Positions 8,077 through 29,131 of a stretch of DNA of 29,131 bases are shown here, piece after piece (within the stretch, counting starts at the first letter, position 1; the number at the start of each line of letters is the position of its first letter). The notes under the pieces were generated by a model, which worked only from the letters and a program-made list of their open reading frames with translations, was not told the DNA's origin and made no database searches. Source of the DNA: a virus; the IMG/VR virus record IMGVR_UViG_3300009593_000088, positions 1-29,131 of that record, one strand, 5' to 3'. The position numbers and the translations under genes are program-made.

Positions 8077-8781
8077 GTGTCGATTAATACATTCATTAGT
8101 GCAATTGCCAAAGGTGGCAACATGGCCATGTCAAATGGCTATGATGTACAGTTCGAGATAACTAGTTCTTTTCGAAATTATCTAGATGAGTTTTTCCTAG
8201 GAGATCTTTATACAACTGATGCATCTAATCTTGGTGGCTTGGTTAAGTTACTTTGTGATGAAGCACAACTACCTAATACTCAAGCAGCAACAGGACAATT
8301 GCAAGGAAGATATCTTGGAGAGAACCAAGTCAGTTATCCTTATGCTAGATTTTTTACAGATTTTTCTTTATCATGGATGTGTGATGTAAATATGACACCA
8401 TTGAAGTTTGTGACAGCATGGCATAACTTTATATTTGATGGAGGAATGGTTCAAAATGGTCCAAAGAAAAATATTTCAGGATCTTTGACGGGAATTAAAG
8501 GTGAACGTCCCCATATATTTAATAGAGCAATTAGATTAAAATATCCTAATAAATATGCTGCTACAGTGAGAATTACAAAGACAGATCAAGGACCACAAGC
8601 ACCTAATCAGAGAGCAGGAATTTCATATATTATGGAAGAATGTTATCCATATTCAATTGATTCTGTGCCTTTATCTTATGGTACATCACAATTAACTAGA
8701 GTTTCAGCTAACTTTTATTATGCGAAGCATAGTGTGGTATATCAAGATCAAAGTGTATACCCTTCGAAGACCATTTTCTGA
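8077..8781 (+). CDS. Tail tube/tube-initiator-like protein (gp19/gp54 type)
   Basis: This 234-residue protein resembles the T4 gp19/gp54 tube-fold family. Features are ANLPNTQ-type sequence (here EAQLPNTQAATGQLQGRYLG), YPYARFFTDFSLSWMCD, then MTPLKFVTAWHNFIFDGG in the middle. The C-terminus has YPYSIDSVPLSYGTSQLTRV, the usual closing beta strands. It could be gp54, the tube initiator that works with gp48, or an additional tube-like protein; the length lies between T4 gp19 and gp54. The annotated start is GTG 8077, giving the N-terminus SINTFISAIAKGG. An internal ATG at 8122, preceded by AAAGGTGG, is an alternative. No clear late promoter or SD precedes the GTG. The gene diverges from gp4 with only 32 bases between them. 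Confidence 0.72.
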   Translation: MSINTFISAIAKGGNMAMSNGYDVQFEITSSFRNYLDEFFLGDLYTTDASNLGGLVKLLCDEAQLPNTQAATGQLQGRYLGENQVSYPYARFFTDFSLSWMCDVNMTPLKFVTAWHNFIFDGGMVQNGPKKNISGSLTGIKGERPHIFNRAIRLKYPNKYAATVRITKTDQGPQAPNQRAGISYIMEECYPYSIDSVPLSYGTSQLTRVSANFYYAKHSVVYQDQSVYPSKTIF

Positions 8782-8893: not shown

Positions 8894-9607
8894 ATGGCAT
8901 TACCGAAATTAGGTGTACCCACCTATGAACTGATTTTACCTTCAACTGGAAAAACTGTTAAGTATAGACCTTTTCTTGTAAAAGAAGAGAAACTGCTTTT
9001 ACTTGCAATGGAATCAGGAGAAGAGAAGGAAATAATAACTGCTGTAAAAACACTTCTGAAGAATTGCATTACATCTAGACTAAAAGTAGATAATTTACCA
9101 TCATTTGATTTAGAATACATCTTTTTGAAGATACGTGCAGCATCTGTTGGTGAAGTAATTGAATTAACAGTTACATGTACTGATGATAATGAAACAACTA
9201 CTACAGCATCTATAGATATATCAGATATAGAAGTTGAGAAGTCTAAAGAGCATTCTAACAAGATTATGCTAGATGATAAAACAGGTATTGTGATGAAGTA
9301 TCCTAGTATCGATAGATTCATAGAATCACAATTTTTGAATAAAGATGTTAAAACTGAAGAGGTTTTTAACTTTATTTCAGATAATATTGATCAAATTTTT
9401 CAAGGTGATGAGGTATTTGATAAAACTACTACAACACCCAAAGAATTTCGTACATTTGTTGAAGGTTTGACTAGTAAACAGTTTGAAGCAATTCAAAAAT
9501 TTTATGAAACCATGCCTAAACTAACTCATTCATTTACAGTGATTAATCCAAATACTGAAGTTGAATGTAAGTACAATCTTGAGGGACTACAGAGTTTTTT
9601 CGCATAG
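8894..9607 (+). CDS. gp26: Baseplate hub/tail assembly protein gp26
   Basis: This 237-residue protein matches T4-type gp26 (T4_baseplate family, PF12322). It starts PKLGVPTYELILPSTGK and YRPFLVKEEKLLLLAME, and has the conserved DLEYIFLKIRAASVGE block (about residues 76-91). A C-terminal block, FTVINPNTEVECKYNLEG, follows. gp26 is needed for baseplate hub assembly in T4. Its place directly before tape-measure-like genes, and its -1 extension, suggest a tail assembly chaperone role similar to lambda gpG. The last codons run AGT TTT TTC GCA TAG: a slippery heptamer lies just before the stop (see the frameshift feature). A late promoter precedes the gene. Confidence 0.87.
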   Translation: MALPKLGVPTYELILPSTGKTVKYRPFLVKEEKLLLLAMESGEEKEIITAVKTLLKNCITSRLKVDNLPSFDLEYIFLKIRAASVGEVIELTVTCTDDNETTTTASIDISDIEVEKSKEHSNKIMLDDKTGIVMKYPSIDRFIESQFLNKDVKTEEVFNFISDNIDQIFQGDEVFDKTTTTPKEFRTFVEGLTSKQFEAIQKFYETMPKLTHSFTVINPNTEVECKYNLEGLQSFFA

Positions 9608-9635
9608 CGGTCTTCCAGAACAGTTTGGAAGGCTA
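9595..9635 (+). promoter_or_regulatory. Probable programmed -1 ribosomal frameshift signal
   Basis: T_TTT_TTC (9595-9601) is an X_XXY_YYZ slippery heptamer in the gp26 frame, two codons before the gp26 stop. A stem-loop follows: TAGC (9605-9608), bulge GGT, CTTCC (9612-9616), loop of 10, GGAAG (9627-9631), GCTA (9632-9635). Slippage by -1 enters the downstream frame at 9601, which stays open to 9789. Confidence 0.72.
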
Positions 9636-9789
9636 TTATAAGACTAACTTTGCTTTGATGCAGTACCATAAATATAGTTTGACTGAAATAGAAAATATGA
9701 TGCCCTGGGAACGAGAAGTATATCTTTCTCTTCTTGTTCAATATATTCAGGAAGAAAAGAAGAAAGCAGAGGCAGCTAAACAGAAATAA
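9601..9789 (+). CDS. gp51-like / tail assembly chaperone T-domain, read by -1 frameshift from gp26
   Basis: This frame encodes 62 residues from codon 9601 to the TAA at 9787-9789: RIAVFQNSLEGYYKTN, then FALMQYHKYSLTEIENMM, then PWEREVYLSLLVQYIQEEKK. The protein-like features (HKYSLTEIENMMPWE followed by amphipathic helix) resemble the T part of GT-type tail assembly chaperones and the small protein annotated as gp51 in cyanophages. There is no ATG or GTG before 9658. The previous stop in this frame is at 9580-9582; only TTG 9625 or ATA 9604 could start it, without a visible SD. Translation by -1 slippage from gp26 is therefore the best explanation and would give a 298-residue gp26 fusion. T4 gp51 itself is much longer, so the gp51 name is tentative. 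Its stop overlaps the next start as TAATG. Confidence 0.72.
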   Translation, partial: RIAVFQNSLEGYYKTNFALMQYHKYSLTEIENMMPWEREVYLSLLVQYIQEEKKKAEAAKQK

Positions 9790-11618
9790 TGGCTTTAGAA
9801 GAACAAGCAATCGAGATTCTGGATGAATCTGCATCAGATGCAGATAGTAGTTTGGTGGATCAGCTTGTAGAAGAGTTTCCTGCCCTTGCTGGTTCTTTAG
9901 TTAAGACTATTAATAGAAGAAACAATACTAGTTTAGAAATACCCAAGAAAGAGAGAGTTTCTAAAAATAAGATATTATTGGATATTACATCCACTTTATC
10001 AAAGATTAATGGGGAACTTATTATTGTTAATAGTAGGATACACGCACAAAATGATTTATTACGTGCAAATCTAGGACTTACTGCTAGTTCTGTAGGTAAT
10101 TTAGAATATAATGATAGTTTACTTACAAGTAAACTTGATTCAGTGCTTGAAGCATTGAAAATACAAAATGAATTTATGAGAGAGAGGGAGGAAGATCAAA
10201 CACGTGCAAATATAGAAGGTCGTGGTGAAGGAACTGATCCAGGTGCATTTTCAGAAGGATACAGTAAAGGGTATAAAAAAGGAAGTCCTATCAAAGAACT
10301 ATTATTAGAAAAAGTTCGTAATTATTTCACCACGAGAATATTGAAGTTTTTTACTAAAAAGGGTATGTTAAATATCCTTACTAATGTAAAGAGTAAATTG
10401 GGATGGAAGACTGCTGCTAAAGGATGGGATCATATTGCATTAAATCCAAAGCAAAATAAATTCATGAAACCTAGATGGTGGCAAGCAGTTGATGATTATA
10501 TGAAACCTATAACAAGACCATTAACTTCTAAAATTGATGACATTGCTAGTAGTGCATGGGGTAAAGGATTATTTCAAATGGTGACTGATCCTGGTAAATG
10601 GTTGCAGAATACTATGGGTAGCAAATGGATGGATAATATACCTATGGGAGGACTTGGAAAAAAATTAGCAAAACGTCTTCCTTTAATTACGGCAAGATTT
10701 AGTAGTAAGATGGTTCCTGTTGCTGGTGCTGCTATTTCATTTACTGAAGCAAATGAGAGAAGAAAAAATGGAGATATGTTTGGTGCTTGGTTAGCAGGTA
10801 TTGGAGGATCAGCTGATACAGCATCTTTGTTTACATCACCAGCAGCAGGAACAGGTGTTGGTGCTGCTGTACCTGCTGGATTACAGGCAGTATCAATGGG
10901 TGCAGATATTAGTTTATTAGTTTATGATATCTGGAATGCATTTACTCAACCATTGCAAGAACATGAGATGGAGCATGGTGGAGTAATACAAGCACCACCT
11001 ATATTAACACCAGCAGAAAAAGGTGCTGTGATAGGAGGTAATGGATCTTCAGATATAGGACATATAGTTAATGCTGCAGCGATGATTACAGATACATTTA
11101 AAGTCAATTTGAGTGGTACTAGTAAATTACGTAATGAATATCCCACAGATGGATCTACTGGTGTTGTGACACTAACTCCATTAGCAGGATCACAAATTGT
11201 TCGTGAAGATGATGCAAAATCAGAGGATTTCCAACTAGAAGATATTGCACCTACTAATGACAATAATGCTATTCGATCAAATGTATCTGGAGAATCTGGA
11301 GATAATGAAGAGTCTAAAGGAGAAGATGTTTTATTATCTAGTAATGAAAGTAAAATAGATCCAATAGATGGTATTGATGTGGCATCTAATAATAATGTTA
11401 ATATATCAAATATATCTTCTGTTACAGAAACTAATGATATATCAAATAATATTTCTTATGACGTAGATCCAGTAGGCAAAACTAAAATAATATTTGTCAC
11501 AAAAACTAACACAGTATCTGGTGGTAATAATGTTATTGCTACTGGTGGAGGAGACACTTATAACGTTAAAATATATCAAGGACATCATAAGTTGTCTAGG
11601 TTGATACTTGCTTCATAA
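9789..11618 (+). CDS. Tape-measure-like tail protein, 609 residues
   Basis: Its position right after the gp26/-1 extension pair and its make-up point to a tape measure or tail-internal protein (the role of T4 gp29). Residues 1-140 are largely helical with coiled-coil character (KLDSVLEALKIQNEFMRERE). Residues ~165-320 are basic and amphipathic. Residues ~328-385 form a long Ala/Gly-rich hydrophobic region (FGAWLAGIGGSADTAS, then GLQAVSMGADISLLVYDIW), as expected for a segment that may enter the host membrane. The rest is Asn/Ser-rich and low in complexity. A motif MEHGGVI at 394-400 recurs as FEHGGNI in the next gene. The length is close to that of T4 gp29 (590), but I cannot claim homology. 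It starts at TAATG, coupled to the upstream frame. Confidence 0.6.
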   Translation: MALEEQAIEILDESASDADSSLVDQLVEEFPALAGSLVKTINRRNNTSLEIPKKERVSKNKILLDITSTLSKINGELIIVNSRIHAQNDLLRANLGLTASSVGNLEYNDSLLTSKLDSVLEALKIQNEFMREREEDQTRANIEGRGEGTDPGAFSEGYSKGYKKGSPIKELLLEKVRNYFTTRILKFFTKKGMLNILTNVKSKLGWKTAAKGWDHIALNPKQNKFMKPRWWQAVDDYMKPITRPLTSKIDDIASSAWGKGLFQMVTDPGKWLQNTMGSKWMDNIPMGGLGKKLAKRLPLITARFSSKMVPVAGAAISFTEANERRKNGDMFGAWLAGIGGSADTASLFTSPAAGTGVGAAVPAGLQAVSMGADISLLVYDIWNAFTQPLQEHEMEHGGVIQAPPILTPAEKGAVIGGNGSSDIGHIVNAAAMITDTFKVNLSGTSKLRNEYPTDGSTGVVTLTPLAGSQIVREDDAKSEDFQLEDIAPTNDNNAIRSNVSGESGDNEESKGEDVLLSSNESKIDPIDGIDVASNNNVNISNISSVTETNDISNNISYDVDPVGKTKIIFVTKTNTVSGGNNVIATGGGDTYNVKIYQGHHKLSRLILAS

Positions 11619-11640: not shown

Positions 11641-13977
11641 ATGGCAGCATTTACAGAAGGATTTTCAAATGTATCAGGTGGAGAAGGTAAAGGGCCTGCA
11701 CACCTAGGTAGAGTCATTAGTATGGTTCTTGAAGCTCGTCAAATGGCATCAGACGAGAGGAGAGAAGCACAAAAAAAGTTATCAGAGCAAGCACCTGAAC
11801 TCAAGCTTGAAGATTTTGGTATAAACAAGGGGTATTTCTTTAAAAAAGCATTACAACATAATTTTGGTGGTGCTTTTTTAGACAGGAAGAAAGAGAATTT
11901 AAAGAAATTACTTTCTGCTAGAAGGATTTTAAAATCTAAAAAGAAAATATATGTTACTGCTAGAAATTTTTTAAAAGATCATACTAGATTTGGCAAGGTT
12001 GATGGTGCACGTGCTGCTAGTTTTAAGAAAAAGTTTAATTATAATGTGGAGGTTGAATCTCCTGCAGGATTGGAAGATTCATCTGCAAAGGTTGCTAAAG
12101 CAGCATCTGGAGGAGGTGGTGGTAGTAGATCAAGTACTAAACAAGACTTTTTAACAGCAGTAACTGAAATTGCAAAGTCATTACAAAGTACTGCACAGTC
12201 TATTAATAATGCTGTTGATAAGAATACTGGTATAGCAGCTGGTATTGTATCATCACAAAAGAATATTGTAGTTGAGATAAGTCAGAGAACAGATAGGGTA
12301 ACAGATAAACTAGAAGCAATAGCAGCAGCAGTTAATCAGCAAACTGAATTTTTAAAGAAAGCAAAAACAACTGCTAAAGCAGATAAAACAGAAGCAAAAG
12401 GTGAGTTAAAGAAACTTGATAGTGCATTTAATAATAGGTTTGATAACTTACGTACTAGAAAAGATGAAAGTCTGGAGACGAGTACTTCTGAAAATATTAC
12501 TAATCAATCTAGAAACGATACAACTCCACCAGATCCATGGGGTGATTTTGAGCATGGTGGTAATATACCTGCAGTAACTGAAATTAATGGACCTCGTACT
12601 GGATTTAAAACAACAACTCCAGATGGTGTTCCGTTCATTGGTCATGGTAGAGAGAAGATGGTAAGCTTGCCAGGAGGTGGAACTCAAATTATTCCAATGG
12701 ATAATTATGCAACTGATGGTATTCAAGGTAATGAAGTGACTCCTGGTGGTGATCTGATGGCAGAGAAGGGTATGAAGATACCACCACTACCACCATTTAA
12801 ATCATTAACTCCACTTTCTGGATTAGATTTATCTAAACCTTTCAAAACAGCTCCAACTACTACTAGTGGTAGTTCTGCTGGAGGTCAAGATATGCTAGAT
12901 GCAATGCAACTTCCATTTAGAGCAGTAGGAGCATCTTTATTAAAGGTAACAGGTGATGTAAGAAATAGACTTGGTGCAGTAAGTCCTGTTGCTGATGCAA
13001 AATTAAATAATATAACGAATGTTATTGCCAATGCTTTTGGTTTATCTTCAGAAGATGTAGCACCTACTAAAGCATCAGGTGAAGCAAATGCTAGGGTTAG
13101 AAAAACATTAGATGAAAAAGAAGATTCTAAAAAGGATCTTAAATGGTATCAGCTTGAAGCAATTAAGAATTTTATTGGTAATAAATGGAATCAAACTGGT
13201 AATCTTATCAATAGTACTAAAGAGGGTGGAAAAAACCTATTTAAGAATATGTTAGGTAGAAATAAAGAATTTAGTCAAAAAGAGATTGCTACTATATTCA
13301 TTAAGGAGTTTAAAAAACAAGGTTTGTCTGACATTGGTGCTCAATTAGCAACAGCAGAGTTTATGAGAGAGTCTAGTTTACTTCAATCAAATGTGCTGGG
13401 ATCACATATGGATGGGAATGAGAGAGCATGGGGTGCAGGTTCTTGGCAGTTGGATAGAGATGATGCATTATTTAAACATCTAAATGAAAAATATGGTATT
13501 ACTCCAGAGAATTTTGCAAATAGTGGTCAGAAGGGAATTAAAGGTCAAGCTTCTTTCATGTTGGAAGAGATGAGAAATAAAGAGTTGCTGACACTATTAA
13601 AGAAACCTTCTTTGAATGAAGAAGAGAAGACTAGAGTAAGACAATTGTTTAAAGAAGCATACTTTAGATATAACGAGTCTATACCTTTAGATAGATCAGA
13701 AGATGCATTTGGATCTATACTGAAATACATGGGTGATACATCTAGTCTTCATTCATCATCTAATAATGATCTTGCATCAAATAATTTCCTTGAATCATTT
13801 AAAAATGATTCTAATTCAGCAGTAGAAATTGTTAATCTTAATCTTGGTGAGGATGGTTCGCTTGCATCTTCTACAAGTTTTACTGATCAATTAAGTACTG
13901 GTGATGATACCTTGACAGCAGGGTCAACCTGGTCTTTAGGGATGGATACATATTGGCCACAGAAAATTCATGCTTAA
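11641..13977 (+). CDS. Tail-internal protein with lysozyme-like domain, 778 residues
   Basis: This large protein starts at an ATG with an excellent SD. The N-terminal ~140 residues are basic and helical. A glycine linker follows near residue 157, and a long helical/coiled-coil stretch follows from about 170 to 280 (VTDKLEAIAAAVNQQTEFLK). There is then a Gly/Pro-rich part with FEHGGNIPAV and FIGHGREKMVSLPGGGTQII. The C-terminal third (about 541-700) looks like a phage tail lysozyme/transglycosylase domain: an alpha-helical GLSDIGAQLATAEFMRESSL with candidate catalytic E573 or E577, then AWGAGSWQLDRDDALFKHL. Such domains cut peptidoglycan during DNA injection. As the gp5-type protein here lacks a visible lysozyme domain, this protein may supply that activity. 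It could equally be the tape measure. The domain call rests on motif pattern only. Confidence 0.62.
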   Translation: MAAFTEGFSNVSGGEGKGPAHLGRVISMVLEARQMASDERREAQKKLSEQAPELKLEDFGINKGYFFKKALQHNFGGAFLDRKKENLKKLLSARRILKSKKKIYVTARNFLKDHTRFGKVDGARAASFKKKFNYNVEVESPAGLEDSSAKVAKAASGGGGGSRSSTKQDFLTAVTEIAKSLQSTAQSINNAVDKNTGIAAGIVSSQKNIVVEISQRTDRVTDKLEAIAAAVNQQTEFLKKAKTTAKADKTEAKGELKKLDSAFNNRFDNLRTRKDESLETSTSENITNQSRNDTTPPDPWGDFEHGGNIPAVTEINGPRTGFKTTTPDGVPFIGHGREKMVSLPGGGTQIIPMDNYATDGIQGNEVTPGGDLMAEKGMKIPPLPPFKSLTPLSGLDLSKPFKTAPTTTSGSSAGGQDMLDAMQLPFRAVGASLLKVTGDVRNRLGAVSPVADAKLNNITNVIANAFGLSSEDVAPTKASGEANARVRKTLDEKEDSKKDLKWYQLEAIKNFIGNKWNQTGNLINSTKEGGKNLFKNMLGRNKEFSQKEIATIFIKEFKKQGLSDIGAQLATAEFMRESSLLQSNVLGSHMDGNERAWGAGSWQLDRDDALFKHLNEKYGITPENFANSGQKGIKGQASFMLEEMRNKELLTLLKKPSLNEEEKTRVRQLFKEAYFRYNESIPLDRSEDAFGSILKYMGDTSSLHSSSNNDLASNNFLESFKNDSNSAVEIVNLNLGEDGSLASSTSFTDQLSTGDDTLTAGSTWSLGMDTYWPQKIHA

Positions 13978-15471: not shown

Positions 15472-18400
15472 ATGGATCAAGTACTCTCATCATTATATCC
15501 TACAAATCAGATTGGTTCTGATGGTATGTCCTGGTGGGTTGGTCAAATTGAATCACCAAAGGGATATACTGACCCAGAAGAAGTTCCAGATGGTGGTGAT
15601 CCAAAAAGAGCAGGTAGATATCGTGTAAGAATAGTTGGTGTTCATTTACAATCAGGTGATATTACACCTACAACTGAATTGCCATGGGCACATGTGATGA
15701 TGCCAGCAACACATCCATACTCTGATGGTGGTGTTACTGGTTCTTCTGCTAACTATGATTTGGGTAATTGGGTAATTGGATTCTTCCTTGATTCAGCAAA
15801 GCAGCAACCTATTATAATGGGTTCTATTGGTCATGTTCCTGGTGCTACTGTAATAGATAATCCTGATCCTAACCCAAATAATACAAATAAGAAAGGTTAT
15901 GGTTTTACTAGATTTACACCCAATGATGTTAATGCATCTCAACATAGAGCAGCAGATGAAACGGATGGTAAAAGGGATGATGGTAGTAATGCAAATGGTA
16001 ACATTGCTAACAAGGACGCAAATAGAAAAAATGGATCAACTGCTACTTTAGCAGCATTGCGTGGATTTAATTGTGAAACAAACCCAGCAGGAGGAGAGGT
16101 TTGTGTAGAAATTGCTGACCCTACCTGTGGTTCGGAGAGTAATTTTGACAAAAGTGTAGGTAATATTATAGGTGATTTGTTAGCAGCAAACCAAAAGTCT
16201 GGTGGACAGTTGGGTAGTTATTATGTGAGTAAGGTTAATGGTTATCTTTATGATAAGATAGGTATTGCCAGATATCATATAGGTCGAGTGACACGTCTCG
16301 TAAGGGCACTTATGGGTAGGATGCAATCTGAAATGATTGCTGGTATTAGGAAGGGAATTGATGCTTTAGTTAATGCAGTTCTTGGATTAAATGCTGCAAA
16401 GGAAGCTAAAGATAAAGCTGTATCAAATGATCCTAAAGGTGACCACAAGAGTGTCAAGAAGGAAGGTAACCTTCTTAAGAGAGTCAAGAAGGTTATCGAT
16501 AGGATCCTAAAAGCATTGGGATGTGCTATGGAAGATGCTATTGATATGTTAGTTAAATGGTTGACTAACATGCTATTCAATATGATCATGGAAGCATTTT
16601 CACCTGCTGTTTGCCTTATCCAAAACCTTGTAGATGGTATTGTTAATAAGATCATATCTGTTATTGATGGTCTTATTTCAAAGGTTATGGGACCATTGCA
16701 GAGTATCTTGTCTATTATAGGAGGTGGTATAGACATAGTATCTTCTGCTTTAAACAAGATAATGTCTTTCCTTGGTATTAATTGTGGTGGACCTAATAGT
16801 AAGTGTTCTAAAACGACAAAGACATGTAGTGATTGTGGTAGTGATGAGGAGAAAGATGATTGGTTGGATACATTATTAGATCAGATTGAAGGTGGTGATA
16901 CTGGAGAGAGATTTACATGTGATGAGGCTAAAGATTATCCAGATGATAAAGATACCAATATTGTATTTGTTGGTGGTATTCCAGAGTCTCCTGTACCAAT
17001 TGGTGATGATTCTACTCCTGATGGTGAAGACAATGATGACAATGATACTTTCTTCCCAGATGATGATATAGATCCAGGAGATGACGACGATGACGATGAT
17101 GACGACGACGATGATGATGATGACGATGATATTATTGATCCTATCATCTATCCTGAAGACGACGACGATGATGATGACGAGTATGATCCAGTACCTTTAG
17201 ATGAGACTGGAACTCCTTTCTATGAGATAACTATAGATTCTCCAACTATAGTTAATGGTGATACTGTAGTATATACTGTACATACAGGACATGTACCAGC
17301 AAAGGATAGTAATGATCCATTGTCTACAGGTGCAATACTACAGTATACAATATCAGGTCCAGATACATTTACTGATGATGGACTTACAGGTACATTTGAA
17401 GTCTTATTAGATAGAATGGATACTACTACAGCATATGATGAAAATGGTGATGAAACAGTTGTTGATGTTCCTGTGGGTAAATCAACATTCTCTGTGACAT
17501 TTTCTGATGATATACAAATACCAACAGCAGAACAACGTGTATTATGTACAGTACAACAGATATATGATCATAAATTTTATATTGCAACAATAGGATCAGG
17601 TACTGCATCAGAAATTATTTCAGAGAATGCATTCAAGCTTGGAGTTAGAGGAATAGTTCTCAATACAGGACCAGTAGATGCAGATGGTGACCGCATGGGA
17701 GCATATACTCCTGGAACATATACTAATGTTGCAGGTGTTGGAGGACTTAAGGGAACTGAAGCAACATTTGATGTAGTTATAGATGAAAATGGTGACTTTG
17801 AATCAGTAACACTTAATGCTAAAGGTAAAGGATTTGCAATTGGTGAAGTAATAACAATTAGTGGTACATTAGTTGGTGAAACAGAATTTAATACAAACCC
17901 TGCTGTTAGTAAGGATATAACTTTTACTGTCACTGATTTGGAAAGGATTCCAACTATTGATCATGATGAAGCAGATACAGTAGTACTTGCTGATCTTGAG
18001 CAAATAAGATATCCAGATGATGAATTTGATCCTAATCCAGTTCCTACTTATGAAATTGTTGCAGATAAAGAGAATTACAATGAGGGAGAAGATATAACAT
18101 TTACCATCACTACTACTAATGTTGATGATAATACTAAAGTTGATTATACAATATATGGTGACATTGAACAGGCAGATCTTATTGATGCTATGACTGGTAC
18201 TATTACTATTAAAAATAATAGTGCCAAGTTAATCATTGGTATTGCTGAAGATATAGAGGAAGAAGTTGATGAAAGTCTTTACATTACTTTAGTTGGTGTT
18301 GATGCTGCTACTTCTGTTGTTATTAATGGAACTTATGTGCCAGAAACTACAGTACCAGAAGAGATAATAAAGATAGATAAACCAACATGTGGTCTTCCTA

Positions 18401-21379: not shown

Positions 21380-24300
21380 ATGCCCTTAACAAGACTTGAT
21401 AACCTATATTCAAGTAAAACAGGTAAGTACCTATATGTGTCGCCAGATGATTTTAATGCGACTGATGAGTTAGATAATAGAGGTAATTCACCTCTACGTC
21501 CATTCAAGACGATTCAGAGAGCTTTTATAGAGGTTTCTAGGTATTCTTATCTTCCAGGTAAGGATAACGATAGATTTGACCAGTTCAGCATCATGTTGAT
21601 GCCTGGTAACCACTATATTGATAACAGACCTGGATTAGTTGAAGCTGCTAATCCTGAAGCAAGATATTTTGATGCTGCTAATTTAATTGATGCAAATAGA
21701 CAGACCATTATTGATCGTGGTGCTGCTGAAATTGCTATACATCACCCTGACTTTTTCTACCCTAAAGATACTGAAACACAAGATTACTCAAGATATAAGG
21801 ACGCATTTAGACTTTCTCAATTAAACCGTCAAGAAATTATTAATAATTCTTGGTCTGCTACTATTTCTCAATTCCCTACTCATGGACAATATGAAGATAA
21901 GTGTAAAAGAGATTTAGGTCTCTTTATTGATGCATTATCACTTGATGTTGCTCAAGCAGATGGTAATGAATATACTATTAAATTCTGTGAGTCATTCTTT
22001 AATGAATCTGGACAAACATGGTTGAATGGTAGTTTACAAGGTGAAACAACAGAAGCAATTTTTGGATTTGAAAAAGCAAGAGACAATATGTTCCTTGCTA
22101 TTGCTAACCAGTTATCAGCACAAGATCTAACAATTACTGCTGATAATGCACCAGGATCTGATTATGGTACTGCAACAAGGCAATTAAAACCATATGATGC
22201 TGATTACACTCCTGTTGATGGTAAATTAATATTACATGTTACAGATCACCAGTTATCAGTTGGTGACCATATTAATATTGCTGCAAATTCACTTACATTT
22301 ACTTGTGATCAGGATAATAACGCATCTGATCATTTATATCCAAGATTAAGTGACCCTGCTGCTGGTAAGTACCTAGAAATATTAAATGTAATAAATGATA
22401 ATCAATTTGAAGTTAATGTTGGTGCTACACCTATCGTTAACTACACACCAACAGGTGGAGAGTATGATCCTTTAACTGGTGAATTGATACTTGATATTGG
22501 TGCTCATACACTTGGAAAAGGTGAAACTGTTAAATTAGCAGGAGAATCAATCATATTCAAGTGTGATGAAGATGGTGGTGCTACCACTCATCCATATCCT
22601 CGTACTAGTGACCCAGCATATAACGCAGCATTACAAATTACTAGTGTTGGTACTACTTATACTCCTAATTCAGAGACAAAGTATAATGCAACTACTGGTA
22701 TTTTAACCGTTGATATTGGAGCTCATACTTTCCAAAATGGTGATTTCATAAAGTTAGATGATGGTGCTATAACATTCAAATGTGCAAAAGATGGTTATGC
22801 TACAGATCATGCATATCCACGTCCTACAGACCCTGCTAGTAAGCAATGGTTGCCAATTTCTAATGTAGGTGCAACATCATTTGATGTTAATGTTGGTATT
22901 TCACCTGATGTAGCATATAATGTTAGTTGGGCTGATTATACACCAACAACAGGTATGTTGGAACTTACTATTGGTAGTCATTCTTTCAATGGACCTACTA
23001 ATAAAACAGCAGAAGATGCTACTTTTGATCCTGTTACTGGTGATCTAGTAATTACTATTCAAGATCATGGATATACTGATGGTGATAGAATTAAGATAGA
23101 AGATGGATCATTAATATTCCTTTGTGACATGGACGGAAAGAATTCCGAGCATGCATATCCAAGATCTACAGATCCTGCAAGTGGTAAATTCTTACCAATT
23201 AGTGACATTACTAATGATACATTCAAAGTTAATGTTGGTGCAACTCCTACTGTAAATTATACACCTACAGGTGCTACATATAACCCTGCAAATGGTGATT
23301 TAACTCTAACTGTTGGATTTCATGATTTAAAAGCAGGAACCAACTTGATGATAAATCAGGATTCTCTCAAGTTTACTTGTGAGATGGATGGTAACAATTC
23401 TATCAAGACTTATCCTCGTTCAACAGATCCTATTTCACATGAACCAACTGCTATAACATCTGTTGGTACATCAGATCATAATGTAACTGTTGCTAATTAT
23501 GATCCTGTTACTGGTGTATTGGAATTGACTACTACTGGAAATTCATTCCAGAATAGTGATAGAGTAATGATTACAGATGAATCATTAACATTTACATGTA
23601 ATAGAGATAGTAATCAGAGTAATCATTCTTATCCTCGTTCTACTGATCCTATTAGTAATCAGTGGTTAATTATAACTAATGTTCAGAATAATAATGTTGG
23701 TGGAAATGACTATCAAACTTTTGAGGTTAATGTAGGTACATCTTCTGATATATCACAACATACGTTTGTTCCTTCTGCTTCTGCTAATGGTGCTCTTAAG
23801 AAACAAACTGGAGATATTACTGTTAATGTAGGTTCATCTCCTATTGTAGATTATAATGTTTCTAATGCAAGTTATACTCCTTCTACAGGTAATCTTGTAC
23901 TAGACATTGGACAGCATGATTTAAATGAAGGATCTAGCATTAAGTTAAAAAACGAATCAATTATCTTTACATGTGCTGCTGATAATGATCAAACCCAGCA
24001 TGCATATCCTCGTGCAGCTGGTCAAGGTGGTGCTAGTGTTGATGATCCATCATATGATACTGCTGTTACTATTCTCAATGTTGCATCAACCTCTCATCAA
24101 CCAGAAATTGGTAGTGCTTATAATCCAAATACTGGAGAATTAACTATTAAGTTATCAGGTAATACATTTAATAATGGTGATAGAGTTCAGTTTGAAGCAG
24201 ATTCTTTAATATTTACTTGTGAGAAGGATAACAATGCTACTCAACACACATATCCAAGATCTACAGATCCTGTAGTAGGAAGATGGTTGCCAATTTCTAA

Positions 24301-27300
24301 TGTAGACACTGTTGCAGGTACATTTACAGTTCAGGTAGGAACATCATACAATACTTCACAACATACATTCTTTGGTGCTCAACCAGGTGCTATGAAGAGG
24401 CAGACTGGTGAAATTTCAGTTAATGTTGGTGTTTCATCTGATCAATCTGTTCATTCATTTGTAACAACAAATGGTAGTCCAGTAATTAGTGGTGGTAACT
24501 ACTTACATACATTTTCAGAAGCAGTTCCTAATGCAGTTAAGACTGGTGGTGGATATGCTCATGAGTATGTTATTTCTACTCCTTCTGGAATAGTAAAAGC
24601 AGGTGATTCAATTAAGATCGGTGCTAATACTATAGATTTCACATGTGGATTTGATAGTAATCAAAGTGTTCACTCATATCCTCGTACTAGTGATCCAGCA
24701 TACGATTCATTACTTCCAATTGTATCTACATCTCCTACAAAAATTACAGTTGATATTGGTATTTCTCCTGATACTTCTGAACATAGATATGTTGATTCAG
24801 ACCCAGGTGCAGTAACTTCTGGTGGTAACTATAACCACGTATGGGAAAGTTCACTTCCTAATGGTTTAACAAGACAAGATGGTAAGATAAAACTTAATGT
24901 TGGTACATCTTCTAACACTACTGCTCATACATTCCATGATGCAATTTCTGGAGCATTGATTACTGGTGGTAACTATGGTCATACGTTTAAAGAATCTGCT
25001 GACAATTCAATAACATTTGCTGATAACCAGAATAATAGAGAGAATACCAATCTTTGTGCTGATATTCAGTCATTTATTGGAAACTTAACTGCTATTGTTA
25101 CATCAACAATTACTGATGGTAATACATCTGGTTTACCTGCACAACCATCAGTTTCTGCAAAAATTCCTGCAGGTGAAGAGAAATGTAAGAGAGATATTGG
25201 GTATTTTATTGATGCTATTGTATCTGACTTAAGAAATGGTGGTAATAGTAACACTATTTCTAATACAAAGACTTATTTTGATCGTGATGGTATTCCAATC
25301 GTTGATGGATTAACAGGTGAGATTGCCGAGTCTGTCACTGCATTTAATGGTGCTCGTGATATGATGACTAAAGCAGTCAGCAACCAATTATATGAAAAAG
25401 ATTTGGTAGTTACTCAAGGACCAGCAGTTGCTGGTACTCAAGGTGCACCAGTTATTGATTATGGTTTATCTGGTAATCCACAGGCATGTTCTGATGTACA
25501 ATCTAACATCATTACATTAACAAATATTTTAACAAGTACTATTAGTGCTGGTAACCTTAATAACCTTGCTACTGTACAGGTTACAGGTACAGTTCCTATC
25601 TTCAACTATAATACAGCATTAGAAGAGTGGCAAGATGATAGTATTCTAGATCTTTCTAACCCAGATAACGTTCTTTATAAGTTTAACTCTTCAACTGGTG
25701 GTACTATCGTACCTAGAGGTTGTTCTCTAATAGGTTATGACCTACGTAGAACTATTGTTAGACCACTATATGTTCCTGATTGTGTAGATGGAGATCAACC
25801 TAGATCTTCTGTCTTTAACCTAACTGGTGGTTGCTACTTGTGGCAGTTTACTATTAAGGATGGTGATTTATCTACAAATTCACCTCTTTATGATGCTGCT
25901 CATAATGTAGGTAAGGTTTACAATAACAAAGGTGATTTCTCATCATTAGCAGTTCCTGAATATTCTCACCATAAGCTCACTGTGATGACTTATGCTGGGA
26001 ATGATGAATTAGATTTATACTATACGAAGGTAGGAAAAGCATTTGCACAGTTCCAACCTACTATAGATGATGGAGAATTTGATGCTCTTGTACAAGAAAC
26101 TAGAATTGTTGGTCCTTTATCTGATACTAGATCAATTGAGAGTATTAAAATTGAAGATAATGCTGGTGGATCATCTTCTACATTATCTGTTACAACCAAG
26201 ATTGATCATGGTTATTTTGTAGGTCAGTATGTTGCTGTACTTAATACTGGATTATCTACTGAAGTTAATGGTACATGGAAAGTAACTTCAATTAATTCAA
26301 CTAACGATAAACTATTCCAGTATGTTATTCCAACTAATGCTGCTGGTCTTGGGTTAGTATCTGGTGCTACTTATACTGCTGCTGCAGGTCAGCTAGGATC
26401 TGGTGCTATTATTCAGGCAGAAATTGATTCTGTTGAATCTGCATCTCCATACGTATTCAACTGCTCCATTAGATCTACATGGGGTATTTGTGGTATGTGG
26501 GCAGATGGATCCATGGTGACTGGATTCAAATCTATGGTTGTTGCCCAGTACACTGGTGTATCACTTCAGAAAGATGATAGAGCATTCATCCGTTACGATA
26601 GATTTAATAACACATGGAATCAAGCAGCATTATCTGATGCATTTGCTACTGTTCCATATCATACTAAAGGTGATGCATACTGGAAGGATGACTGGAGAAA
26701 CTTCCACATCAGATGTACAGATGATGCGTTCATTCAGGCAGTTTCAGTATTCGCTGTTGGATATCATAACCACTTCTTGCTAGAGTCTGGTGGTGATATG
26801 AGTATCACTAACTCTAACAGTAACTTTGGTAATACTTCACTACATGCTAAAGGATTTAAGGGTTATGCCTTCAATCAAGACAAGGGTGGATACATCGATT
26901 CTATTATTCCACCTAAAGTAGTTGATACTTCTGCTACTGCAATTGTTAAGCAACAGTACTATACATTAGATATTGAAAAGTCTAATGATCAGGGTAATCA
27001 TACTAATTTATATCTTGCTGGTAATGAGAATCAGAATCCTGCATCTAGACCTGCTGTTAATATTGGTGGATATAGATTAGGTGCCAAGTCAGGTGAGCAA
27101 CTCTATGTCAATCTACAATCACCTTCTGCTGGTGGTAAGCAAAGATATCATGCTGAACTATCACCTAGTGGATGGACAACATATACTGCTTCATTATCAA
27201 CATTAAAACCTGCTGATTTCAATACTTCATTTGAAATTGGTGGTGATGCAACTGATGATTTCAACACTGCTCAAGATGCTGCGACTCTTATTGAAAGGAA

Positions 27301-29131
27301 TAAGGAATGGATTGCATCTGAAGCATATGGTTATATTATAGGGAAATATCCAGCACTTTTAACTAATCCTGCTATTACTATTAGCAAGTGTGCAAGAGAT
27401 ATTGGATTCTTTGTTGATGCTGTTGTTAAAGATTTACGTGTTGGTGGTAACGTCAATAGTATTAATGCTGGTGAATCATACTTCCAAGGCAATAATCTTA
27501 ACTACATTACTAATGAGTTATCAGAGACATTAGATGCTATGGATCATGCCAAGCGATTGATGCTTGGTGCAATGCGTAACTTTACACTTCTAATTAAGAA
27601 TTGTACCTTTACACAAAATAGTTCTAATGTAATGGTTGGTGATACTTCTGGATTAGTACCAGGAATGACAGTTACTGAATATAATCAGTCTGACTTTACT
27701 GAAGGATGGCTTGATACAAGTGCTACAAATGCAGTTACAACTAATATTCCTGGATCTAATCTTGTTATTGATCAGGTTATTAATGCTACAACAATTAGTA
27801 TAAAGGATAGAAGTACTGGTAATCCATATACTGTTATATCTGCTGGCACAACAACTGCTTGGTTATACTTTAAGAATATAAACCAGTATGGTACTTCTTC
27901 CCAGTATACAGATGAAAGTATTACTATTGATACACAGTATCCAGAGTGTACAAATATTGCTAGTGCTATTCAGGGTTACTATGATACAGTTAACCTTATC
28001 CTATCAGGAAATGGTTCTTCAATAACAAGAGTAGAAGCAATCATTGATTCTTCTTCCTTATCTGGTCGTGCTACAGTATTCACTATTGCTACTGGTGGTG
28101 GTCAATCTGACCCACATGGATGGACAACTGGTACACCTGTAAGACTTGTACCAAAAAGATCTTCTGGTAATGTTGTAGATAAGAGACTTATAAGACTTCC
28201 AATAGGATTTGCTACTAATCAAATCTATTATGTAATTGCTCCAGGTAGAGAAACATATCCAAAGACATGGCATGGAACAGGTAAAGAATTTGATAGAACA
28301 AATTCTACAAAATTAATGCTTGCTGCATCTAAAGAAAATGCTGCTGCTGGTATCTATATCTTCTCTCCAGAGACAGATTACATCGATGGTAATGTAGAGG
28401 TTGAGATTCAACAGTATGTACTAGATGATAAGTATGATTTACATCGTTATAACTGTAACGTAAGTGGTACTTATATTGAAACAGATATTCCACACATATT
28501 TGATATGCCATTGGATGCTGTATCTGTACAGAAAATATTCTTTAAGACTTCTTCTGATGCTAGTTCTGAATTACCAACTATTGCTGGTGGTGGTGTTGTA
28601 GATTCTACTACTTACTACTATCCAAGATGGGTAACCAAGACTAAATTTAGTGTTCATACATCAGAGGCAGATGCTAGAGCAGGGGTTAATGCAGTAGTAT
28701 TTACTGCTAACAGTGGTAATGACTTCATAGCATATGGTGATAAACTAACCAGTCCTTTGAAATATGATGCATCAGTACATCAGCGTTGGTACTTAAATGT
28801 TAAACCAGATTCTGTTGGTGGTGCTGATCCAGATAATATTCTGACTAGATTCCATGCTTCTGATTTCCTAGATGGTACTGGTAATCTCTTTACATCTGAT
28901 ACATGGTTTGAAAGACTGGATGATGATAGAACTCCTGATGATCGTATCTATCGTTTACGTTATGTTATTCCACAATATTTGCAGAACGTAAGAGAACCAC
29001 TTAATGGTTATGTCATTAAGACAAGAACAGATGATAGAAGAAAATTAAGACCACAGAAATTCTATCTAGAACCATTTAGTAATGGTGCTCCAGATGTTGC
29101 TGAATTTACTAACCCAGCACGTCCTGGTGAA
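21380..29131 (+). CDS. Giant modular virion structural protein (3' end outside window)
   Basis: The frame from ATG 21380 is open to the last base, giving at least 2584 residues. The N-terminus MPLTRLDNLYSSKTGKYLYV, then SPLRPFKTIQRAFIEVSRYS and FSIMLMPGNHYIDNRPG, is that of the very large cyanophage virion proteins. The PFKTIQRA part resembles the opening of pectate-lyase-type beta-helices, so a fibre or spike is plausible. Residues ~260-1110 hold nine copies of a module with core FxCxxD-x5-HxYPRxxDP. Three CxRDxGxFxDA modules start at residues 175, 1269 and 2004. Around residue 1700 is STWGICGMWADGSMVTGFKS, a block I associate with these phage proteins. A strict late promoter precedes it. 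Its location after the gp5/needle genes and its size suggest a host-contacting baseplate or tail-fibre component. Confidence 0.85.
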   Translation, partial: MPLTRLDNLYSSKTGKYLYVSPDDFNATDELDNRGNSPLRPFKTIQRAFIEVSRYSYLPGKDNDRFDQFSIMLMPGNHYIDNRPGLVEAANPEARYFDAANLIDANRQTIIDRGAAEIAIHHPDFFYPKDTETQDYSRYKDAFRLSQLNRQEIINNSWSATISQFPTHGQYEDKCKRDLGLFIDALSLDVAQADGNEYTIKFCESFFNESGQTWLNGSLQGETTEAIFGFEKARDNMFLAIANQLSAQDLTITADNAPGSDYGTATRQLKPYDADYTPVDGKLILHVTDHQLSVGDHINIAANSLTFTCDQDNNASDHLYPRLSDPAAGKYLEILNVINDNQFEVNVGATPIVNYTPTGGEYDPLTGELILDIGAHTLGKGETVKLAGESIIFKCDEDGGATTHPYPRTSDPAYNAALQITSVGTTYTPNSETKYNATTGILTVDIGAHTFQNGDFIKLDDGAITFKCAKDGYATDHAYPRPTDPASKQWLPISNVGATSFDVNVGISPDVAYNVSWADYTPTTGMLELTIGSHSFNGPTNKTAEDATFDPVTGDLVITIQDHGYTDGDRIKIEDGSLIFLCDMDGKNSEHAYPRSTDPASGKFLPISDITNDTFKVNVGATPTVNYTPTGATYNPANGDLTLTVGFHDLKAGTNLMINQDSLKFTCEMDGNNSIKTYPRSTDPISHEPTAITSVGTSDHNVTVANYDPVTGVLELTTTGNSFQNSDRVMITDESLTFTCNRDSNQSNHSYPRSTDPISNQWLIITNVQNNNVGGNDYQTFEVNVGTSSDISQHTFVPSASANGALKKQTGDITVNVGSSPIVDYNVSNASYTPSTGNLVLDIGQHDLNEGSSIKLKNESIIFTCAADNDQTQHAYPRAAGQGGASVDDPSYDTAVTILNVASTSHQPEIGSAYNPNTGELTIKLSGNTFNNGDRVQFEADSLIFTCEKDNNATQHTYPRSTDPVVGRWLPISNVDTVAGTFTVQVGTSYNTSQHTFFGAQPGAMKRQTGEISVNVGVSSDQSVHSFVTTNGSPVISGGNYLHTFSEAVPNAVKTGGGYAHEYVISTPSGIVKAGDSIKIGANTIDFTCGFDSNQSVHSYPRTSDPAYDSLLPIVSTSPTKITVDIGISPDTSEHRYVDSDPGAVTSGGNYNHVWESSLPNGLTRQDGKIKLNVGTSSNTTAHTFHDAISGALITGGNYGHTFKESADNSITFADNQNNRENTNLCADIQSFIGNLTAIVTSTITDGNTSGLPAQPSVSAKIPAGEEKCKRDIGYFIDAIVSDLRNGGNSNTISNTKTYFDRDGIPIVDGLTGEIAESVTAFNGARDMMTKAVSNQLYEKDLVVTQGPAVAGTQGAPVIDYGLSGNPQACSDVQSNIITLTNILTSTISAGNLNNLATVQVTGTVPIFNYNTALEEWQDDSILDLSNPDNVLYKFNSSTGGTIVPRGCSLIGYDLRRTIVRPLYVPDCVDGDQPRSSVFNLTGGCYLWQFTIKDGDLSTNSPLYDAAHNVGKVYNNKGDFSSLAVPEYSHHKLTVMTYAGNDELDLYYTKVGKAFAQFQPTIDDGEFDALVQETRIVGPLSDTRSIESIKIEDNAGGSSSTLSVTTKIDHGYFVGQYVAVLNTGLSTEVNGTWKVTSINSTNDKLFQYVIPTNAAGLGLVSGATYTAAAGQLGSGAIIQAEIDSVESASPYVFNCSIRSTWGICGMWADGSMVTGFKSMVVAQYTGVSLQKDDRAFIRYDRFNNTWNQAALSDAFATVPYHTKGDAYWKDDWRNFHIRCTDDAFIQAVSVFAVGYHNHFLLESGGDMSITNSNSNFGNTSLHAKGFKGYAFNQDKGGYIDSIIPPKVVDTSATAIVKQQYYTLDIEKSNDQGNHTNLYLAGNENQNPASRPAVNIGGYRLGAKSGEQLYVNLQSPSAGGKQRYHAELSPSGWTTYTASLSTLKPADFNTSFEIGGDATDDFNTAQDAATLIERNKEWIASEAYGYIIGKYPALLTNPAITISKCARDIGFFVDAVVKDLRVGGNVNSINAGESYFQGNNLNYITNELSETLDAMDHAKRLMLGAMRNFTLLIKNCTFTQNSSNVMVGDTSGLVPGMTVTEYNQSDFTEGWLDTSATNAVTTNIPGSNLVIDQVINATTISIKDRSTGNPYTVISAGTTTAWLYFKNINQYGTSSQYTDESITIDTQYPECTNIASAIQGYYDTVNLILSGNGSSITRVEAIIDSSSLSGRATVFTIATGGGQSDPHGWTTGTPVRLVPKRSSGNVVDKRLIRLPIGFATNQIYYVIAPGRETYPKTWHGTGKEFDRTNSTKLMLAASKENAAAGIYIFSPETDYIDGNVEVEIQQYVLDDKYDLHRYNCNVSGTYIETDIPHIFDMPLDAVSVQKIFFKTSSDASSELPTIAGGGVVDSTTYYYPRWVTKTKFSVHTSEADARAGVNAVVFTANSGNDFIAYGDKLTSPLKYDASVHQRWYLNVKPDSVGGADPDNILTRFHASDFLDGTGNLFTSDTWFERLDDDRTPDDRIYRLRYVIPQYLQNVREPLNGYVIKTRTDDRRKLRPQKFYLEPFSNGAPDVAEFTNPARPGE
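21902..22114 (+). repeat. CxRDxGxFxDA module, copy 1 of 3
   Basis: Encodes CKRDLGLFIDALSLDVAQ and ends near GFEKARDNMFLAIANQL. It shares layout with the copies at 25184 and 27389. Confidence 0.8.
22298..24697 (+). repeat. Nine diverged FxC-HxYPR-DP modules in the giant protein
   Basis: Cores are at 22298-22357, 22556-22615, 22775-22834, 23117-23176, 23372-23431, 23591-23650, 23966-24049, 24212-24271 and 24638-24697, spaced roughly 73 to 142 residues apart. Each core follows a segment of the form YxPxTGxLxLxI-x-H-x3-GDxIKI and is usually followed by FxVNVG. Copy 5 lacks the His (KTYPR) and copy 7 carries an eight-residue insertion between PR and DP. Confidence 0.9.
25184..25393 (+). repeat. 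CxRDxGxFxDA module, copy 2 of 3
   Basis: Encodes CKRDIGYFIDAIVSDLRNGG and ends near FNGARDMMTKAVSNQLY. It is preceded by LCADIQSFIGNLTAIVTSTI and followed by a related ACSDVQSNIITLTNILTSTI. Confidence 0.85.
27389..27588 (+). repeat. CxRDxGxFxDA module, copy 3 of 3
   Basis: Encodes CARDIGFFVDAVVKDLRVGG and ends near MDHAKRLMLGAMRNFT. A diverged ECTNIASAIQGYYDTVNLIL follows at about 27948. Confidence 0.85.

Follow-up and report, generated by a model that had tools for sequence, protein, structure and literature searches.

How is a protein domain translated when its reading frame overlaps the end of another gene and offers no start codon near its beginning? This question is raised by the gp26 locus of a T4-type phage, found in a stretch of viral DNA of 29,131 nucleotides that was analyzed as a whole and is here called the window (IMG/VR record IMGVR_UViG_3300009593_000088). 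The coordinates of the elements discussed below, together with the evidence for each of them, are collected in Table 1.

Table 1. Elements of the gp26/gp51 locus, with window coordinates and the basis of each assignment.
Feature	Position	Strand	Basis
Tail tube protein gene	8077..8781	+	Pfam PF23849 Phage_TTP_2, E 2e-51; phrog_45 tail tube, E 2e-37
gp26, putative short tail assembly chaperone, zero frame, 237 aa	8894..9607	+	PF12322 T4_baseplate, E 9e-68; phrog_150, E 1.6e-76
Shine-Dalgarno-like GAGGGA, probable 5' stimulator	9581..9586	+	Biased Glu/Gly codon choice
Slippery heptamer T_TTT_TTC	9595..9601	+	Sequence and conservation in relatives
gp26 stop TAG, zero frame, one codon past the heptamer	9605..9607	+	Sequence
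Predicted 3' stimulatory hairpin, 11 bp, spacer 7 nt	9609..9634	+	-14.9 kcal/mol, z -3.5
-1 open frame; gp51 domain from the slip site onward	9583..9789	+	phrog_634, E 4.5e-29
609-aa protein, tape-measure candidate	9789..11618	+	Position only; phrog_11440 of unknown function

gp26, a member of the T4 baseplate hub family PF12322, terminates with the codons AGT TTT TTC GCA TAG. An earlier sequence-only reading of this DNA had proposed that a programmed -1 frameshift fuses gp26 to a gp51-like domain, and the features on which it relied are indeed present: the heptamer T_TTT_TTC stands in the zero frame near the end of gp26, and the -1 frame is open across the whole interval given in the table, with its first ATG at 9658, no earlier GTG, and a lone TTG at 9625. 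The -1 frame reads GTTEFFRIAVFQNSLEGYYKTNF..., and recomputation of the fusion returned the same length of 298 residues (236 + 62, the latter being those that follow SFF). The -1 peptide matches not only the gp51 family phrog_634 but also the C-terminus of the gp26 family phrog_150 (E 1.5e-8), and this double match gave the first hint that both frames encode parts of one protein.

Comparison with T4 extends this hint to a complete homolog. A profile of the predicted fusions aligned with T4 gp51 over model positions 24-282, across the joint (E 1.3e-12). The family PF12322 covers, besides T4 gp26, residues 1-201 of T4 gp51 (E 3.9e-52), residues 200-244 of T4 gp51 are homologous to the -1 domain of the window from the slip onward (E 1e-5), and phrog_150 spans nearly the whole of T4 gp51. 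Judging from these matches, T4 gp51 is a paralog of gp26 that carries the same C-terminal domain; as a full-length homolog of the predicted fusion, it would mean that T4 has a dedicated gene for the frameshift product. The fused form of the gp26/gp51 pair proposed earlier thus has a counterpart encoded by a single ORF. The gp26 of the window is homologous to both T4 gp26 and T4 gp51, and homology between the predicted fusion and T4 gp51 extends over the whole of the latter. T4 itself encodes the two proteins by separate genes that lie on opposite strands and have starts of their own, and its gp26 ends with GAG TTC TTT GAG, which holds no slip site.

Conservation of the junction was assessed in a starting sample of 80 IMG/VR loci, which was enlarged by five more queries and by named phages to 216 unique loci; the KVP40, C48C1, and Aeromonas queries yielded few metagenomic relatives. 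Loci below 90% identity constituted a set of 182 representatives, and 106 representatives below 78% identity were used for a scan of codon choice. All of the first 80 loci (80/80) have T_TTT_TTC immediately ahead of the gp26 stop and encode the gp51 domain in the -1 frame. Among the unique loci, an in-frame T_TTT_TTN occurs at the end of gp26 in 214 of 216, while only one of the 245 other ORF ends that these loci contain has such a run, so that both the heptamer and its frame relation are conserved across relatives. Where position was scored, in 192 loci with TTTTTTY, the gp26 stop lies 0-2 codons past the heptamer. It is this conservation, and not the mere presence of a T-run, that carries the weight, since such runs are not rare: the window alone holds four in-frame T_TTT_TTN and 20 TTTTTTY on both strands.

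Codon usage at the heptamer points in the same direction. The second codon of the heptamer is TTC in 147 of the representatives, TTT in 21, TTA in 13, and TTG in one; in the TTA cases, the zero-frame Phe is replaced by Leu, the T-run is kept, and the -1 codon usually still specifies Arg (AGR). The first Phe is encoded by TTT in 182/182 representatives versus about 70% expected from background codon usage, and the codon before it ends in a wobble T, again in 182/182, versus 32-80% expected, these counts being uncorrected for phylogeny. In the scan, gp26 residues 230, 231, and 233-236 were among the 13 columns with the most biased codon choice out of 235. Correction of the codon and covariation statistics for phylogeny consisted solely in the removal of near-identical sequences. 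The two exceptions among the 216 loci are distant relatives, a Klebsiella phage (L098, 3001-3965) and the Vibrio phage D493 (L099, 2839-3795), which have a gp51-like -1 frame and no X_XXY_YYZ heptamer, their gp26 ends reading GAG ATT TTC ATT TAA and CTT TTC AAG TAA.

The heptamer is flanked by two further elements. Upstream, the sequence GAGGG at 9581-9585, which the sequence-only reading had not listed, ends 9 nt before the heptamer, a distance at which an internal Shine-Dalgarno (SD) sequence stimulates dnaX frameshifting; we know of no SD-like stimulator in the frameshifts of tail assembly chaperones. The Glu codon of this motif is GAG in 124 of 162 cases versus 31% elsewhere in gp26, and its Gly codon is GGG in 26% versus 6% elsewhere in gp26. 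Among the 33 Glu columns of gp26, this one uses GAG most often (a fraction of 0.75, the next being 0.57), and among the 10 Gly columns the one in the motif uses GGA/GGG most often. These biases make GAGGG a probable 5' stimulator of the frameshift.

Downstream, RNAfold predicts an uninterrupted 11-bp stem in the window, pairing 9609-9619 with 9624-9634, to which four outer pairs are added (the z-score in Table 1 is relative to shuffled sequences); its spacer of 7 nt falls in the range of 5-9 nt that characterizes bacterial -1 frameshift signals. A stem-loop in this place had been noticed before, and folding bears it out; the bulged form of 4 + 5 bp from 9605 to 9635 that had been drawn for it is a less stable way of pairing these nucleotides. 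Across the family, the segment from +7 to +52 has a mean z of -1.95 and a mean energy of -9.5, compared with a z of about -0.2 and energies of -3.7 to -6.9 in control windows. The arms of a given genome pair better with each other than with arms swapped between genomes (6.28 vs. 4.79, sd 0.11), and at one position of the hairpin the pair changes among T-A, A-T, and G-C. Only some half of the representatives (96 of 182 by one criterion) have a strong hairpin, and its register and shape vary among clades. A single base-pairing register fixed throughout the family was rejected, as registers 50-56 and compact hairpins both occur. Taken on these comparisons, the hairpin is a real but variable element.

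The start codons available to the gp51 domain bear on the main alternative to a fusion, namely that ribosomes re-initiate at an ATG after the gp26 stop and make gp51 as a separate small protein. Database annotation treats gp51 in this way, and the arrangement is imaginable in many relatives: 115 of the 182 representatives have an ATG or GTG within 33 nt past the slip, and in KVP40, Cr30, and Moby stop and start overlap as TAATG or TGATG. However, the remaining 67, the window among them, lack such a codon as far as +33; an early ATG or GTG with an SD-like motif in reach occurs in only 8/182, and GAGGG, located 18-42 nt from the post-slip ATGs, is too distant for most of them. Upstream of the slip, the -1 frame contains no ATG or GTG in any representative (0/182); it usually reaches back no further than 4 to 8 codons from the slip, where it is open in every relative. 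Re-initiation also fails to explain the conserved T-run, the always-open -1 frame, and the alignment of T4 gp51 across the joint. An independent start of gp51 was rejected on the survey of start codons and SD motifs, in which gp51 showed no consistent start with an SD. Because a post-slip start codon is so often absent, and so seldom preceded by an SD, a separate gp51 cannot be the general route, and we regard re-initiation in place of fusion as very unlikely; some relatives may nevertheless make a small gp51 on its own, and in some phages re-initiation could add a third product.

The frame might also be changed by RNA polymerase, slipping on the T-run, and not by the ribosome. A homopolymeric run is compatible with this, and in 21/182 representatives the run measures 7 or 8; yet in 161/182 it is exactly 6 long, the seventh base is usually C, and a run of six T's is shorter than those known to slip well in bacteria. 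Moreover, the run always lies in the X_XXY_YYZ register, and the SD-like motif and hairpin that accompany it are stimulators of ribosomal slippage. Transcriptional slippage was rejected given the length of exactly 6 in most relatives, and we consider it very unlikely. The idea that gene decay, or a mistake in sequencing or assembly, split one ORF has nothing in its favor beyond the split itself and is refuted to the point of being negligible by the recurrence of the split at the same codon in 182 distinct genomes, both environmental and from isolates, with S-PM2, P-SSM2, and KVP40 among them.

With the heptamer in nearly every locus and no consistent start for gp51, the evidence supports the frameshift as first proposed; of the conditions that the earlier reading had named as refuting it, those on the heptamer and on the start of gp51 were examined, and both came out in its favor. 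We consider it highly likely that a programmed -1 ribosomal frameshift yields two tail assembly chaperones from one gene. We infer that the majority of ribosomes would stop at 9605 and make the short gp26 of 237 residues, while a minority would pause at the heptamer, slip back by one base, and pass the stop in the -1 frame, giving a long form of 298 residues with the gp51 domain at its C-terminus. Located about 10 nt upstream, the SD-like GAGGG could pair with the 16S rRNA of the translating ribosome and would probably help the slip, as would, probably, the hairpin 7 nt downstream, in the manner of E. coli dnaX. The signal resembles that of dnaX in combining an internal SD-like motif, a homopolymeric heptamer, and a downstream stem-loop; it differs in that dnaX uses A_AAA_AAG and that the dnaX shift leads to a shorter product, whereas the shift here would lead to a longer one. 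The rate of slippage may be low, because U_UUU_UUA and U_UUU_UUU are far less shifty in E. coli than A_AAA_AAG (PMC5009743).

The proposed role of the two products is modeled on the G and GT proteins of lambda: by analogy, the short form would serve as a coat for the tape measure protein and the long form, through its gp51 tail, would recruit tube subunits; T4 would obtain this pair from two genes, gp26 and gp51. The slip site of lambda is G_GGA_AAG, in contrast to the T_TTT_TTC found here. In gene layout, the two systems are alike, in that a short chaperone ORF follows the tail tube gene and is extended, through a -1 slip toward its 3' end, by a C-terminal domain (PMC5009743), with a large gene, here the tape-measure candidate, coming next. 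According to Pfam and PHROG profile matches, the tail tube protein gene directly precedes gp26, just as V lies upstream of G in lambda. The AlphaFold model of gp26 (pLDDT 87.5) found as its top match among 350,542 PDB chains the HK97 tail assembly chaperone (2ob9; prob 0.93, E 0.47), with partial coverage and a target TM of 0.43 over 62 columns, which is suggestive of a fold like that of the HK97 chaperone gp13. A search of solved structures by sequence with the gp26 and gp51 profiles gave chance matches only. A model of 64 residues (the slip-site FF and the 62-residue domain) is helical, and a fold search with it returned no match.

Downstream, the start of the 609-aa ORF coincides with the last base of the gp51 stop. 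The sequence-only reading had placed the frameshift before the tape-measure gene; a large ORF does follow directly, but similarity to T4 gp29 was not found, either for this ORF (by hhalign) or for the 778-aa ORF beyond it (11641-13977). The latter weakly matches an endolysin family and, in part, the tape measure protein of a Xanthomonas phage, and is an alternative tape-measure candidate. Farther along the window, a GAT/GAC tandem repeat at 17080-17130 lies within a 1145-aa ORF and would form an Asp-rich stretch if read in that phase, and a single ORF of at least 2584 residues (21380-29131, plus strand) runs off the window end, probably encoding a giant structural or tail fibre protein.

The arrangement extends over a considerable range of T4-type phages. 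It is the same in S-PM2, P-SSM2, KVP40, Cr30, phiM19, pf16, and Moby, and the layout recurs in Aeh1, PX29, VmeM-32, and Cronobacter S13. In previous work, cyanophage gp51 was noted to be short, at only about 20% of the length seen in the rest of the gp51 proteins, and gp51 was called missing in Aeh1 (PMC3037559). The gp26 of Aeh1 (L278, 1513-2289) ends with GAT TTT TTC GAC TGA and is followed by the gp51 domain in the -1 frame. In the record of Synechococcus virus S-PRM1 (L090, 2501-2704), the gp51 domain is unannotated and appears as an intergenic gap, and other records give the domain start codons of doubtful support.

Frameshifting in chaperone genes is a familiar device of other phages, and its use by T4-type phages has been treated at least in part. 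Vladimirov, Gautam and Davidson (2022; Virology 566:9-15) reportedly identified the tail assembly chaperones of T4-like phages, which are very probably the same gene pair as the one described here. In the chaperone locus of Vandenendeviridae and Andersonviridae (phage Adele), the short chaperone gene ends with a conserved poly-T motif, GTTTTT, at which a -1 frameshift occurs (PMC12846349); that system shares with the one proposed here a poly-T -1 slip at the end of the short chaperone, in other families and with a different motif. The same paper cites Vladimirov et al. (2022) on poly-T slippage signals in the chaperone genes of T4-like phages, and PMC10885494 cites them for the statement that some T4-like phages have a short copy and a long fusion copy; we take the general idea to be at least partly published. 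The supposition of the earlier reading that such a frameshift was undescribed for T4-type cyanophages stands in one respect, as our literature search among open papers found no description in cyanophages, and not in another, as T4-like chaperones had been treated. For the SD-like stimulator, the covarying hairpin, and the Aeh1 case, no description was found in the open literature.

With regard to evolution, we favor, with moderate confidence, a scheme in which Kyanoviridae and several other T4-type lineages (KVP40, Aeh1, Cr30, and phiM19) make the long chaperone by a dnaX-like signal, and T4 lost the slip site and substituted for it a gene duplication and fusion; the order, with the frameshift ancestral and the duplication derived, is read from the distribution among phages. 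The two-gene arrangement of T4 could be read as a derived replacement of frameshifting. If this scheme is true, the 'gp51 genes' of cyanophages are no genes, and gp51 of Aeh1 is present in the -1 frame. The short cyanophage gp51 noted earlier (PMC3037559) would then be explained, its missing N-terminus being gp26, and the annotation of a core gene would be corrected in hundreds of marine phage genomes, in which the gp51 domain is now recorded as separate or missing.
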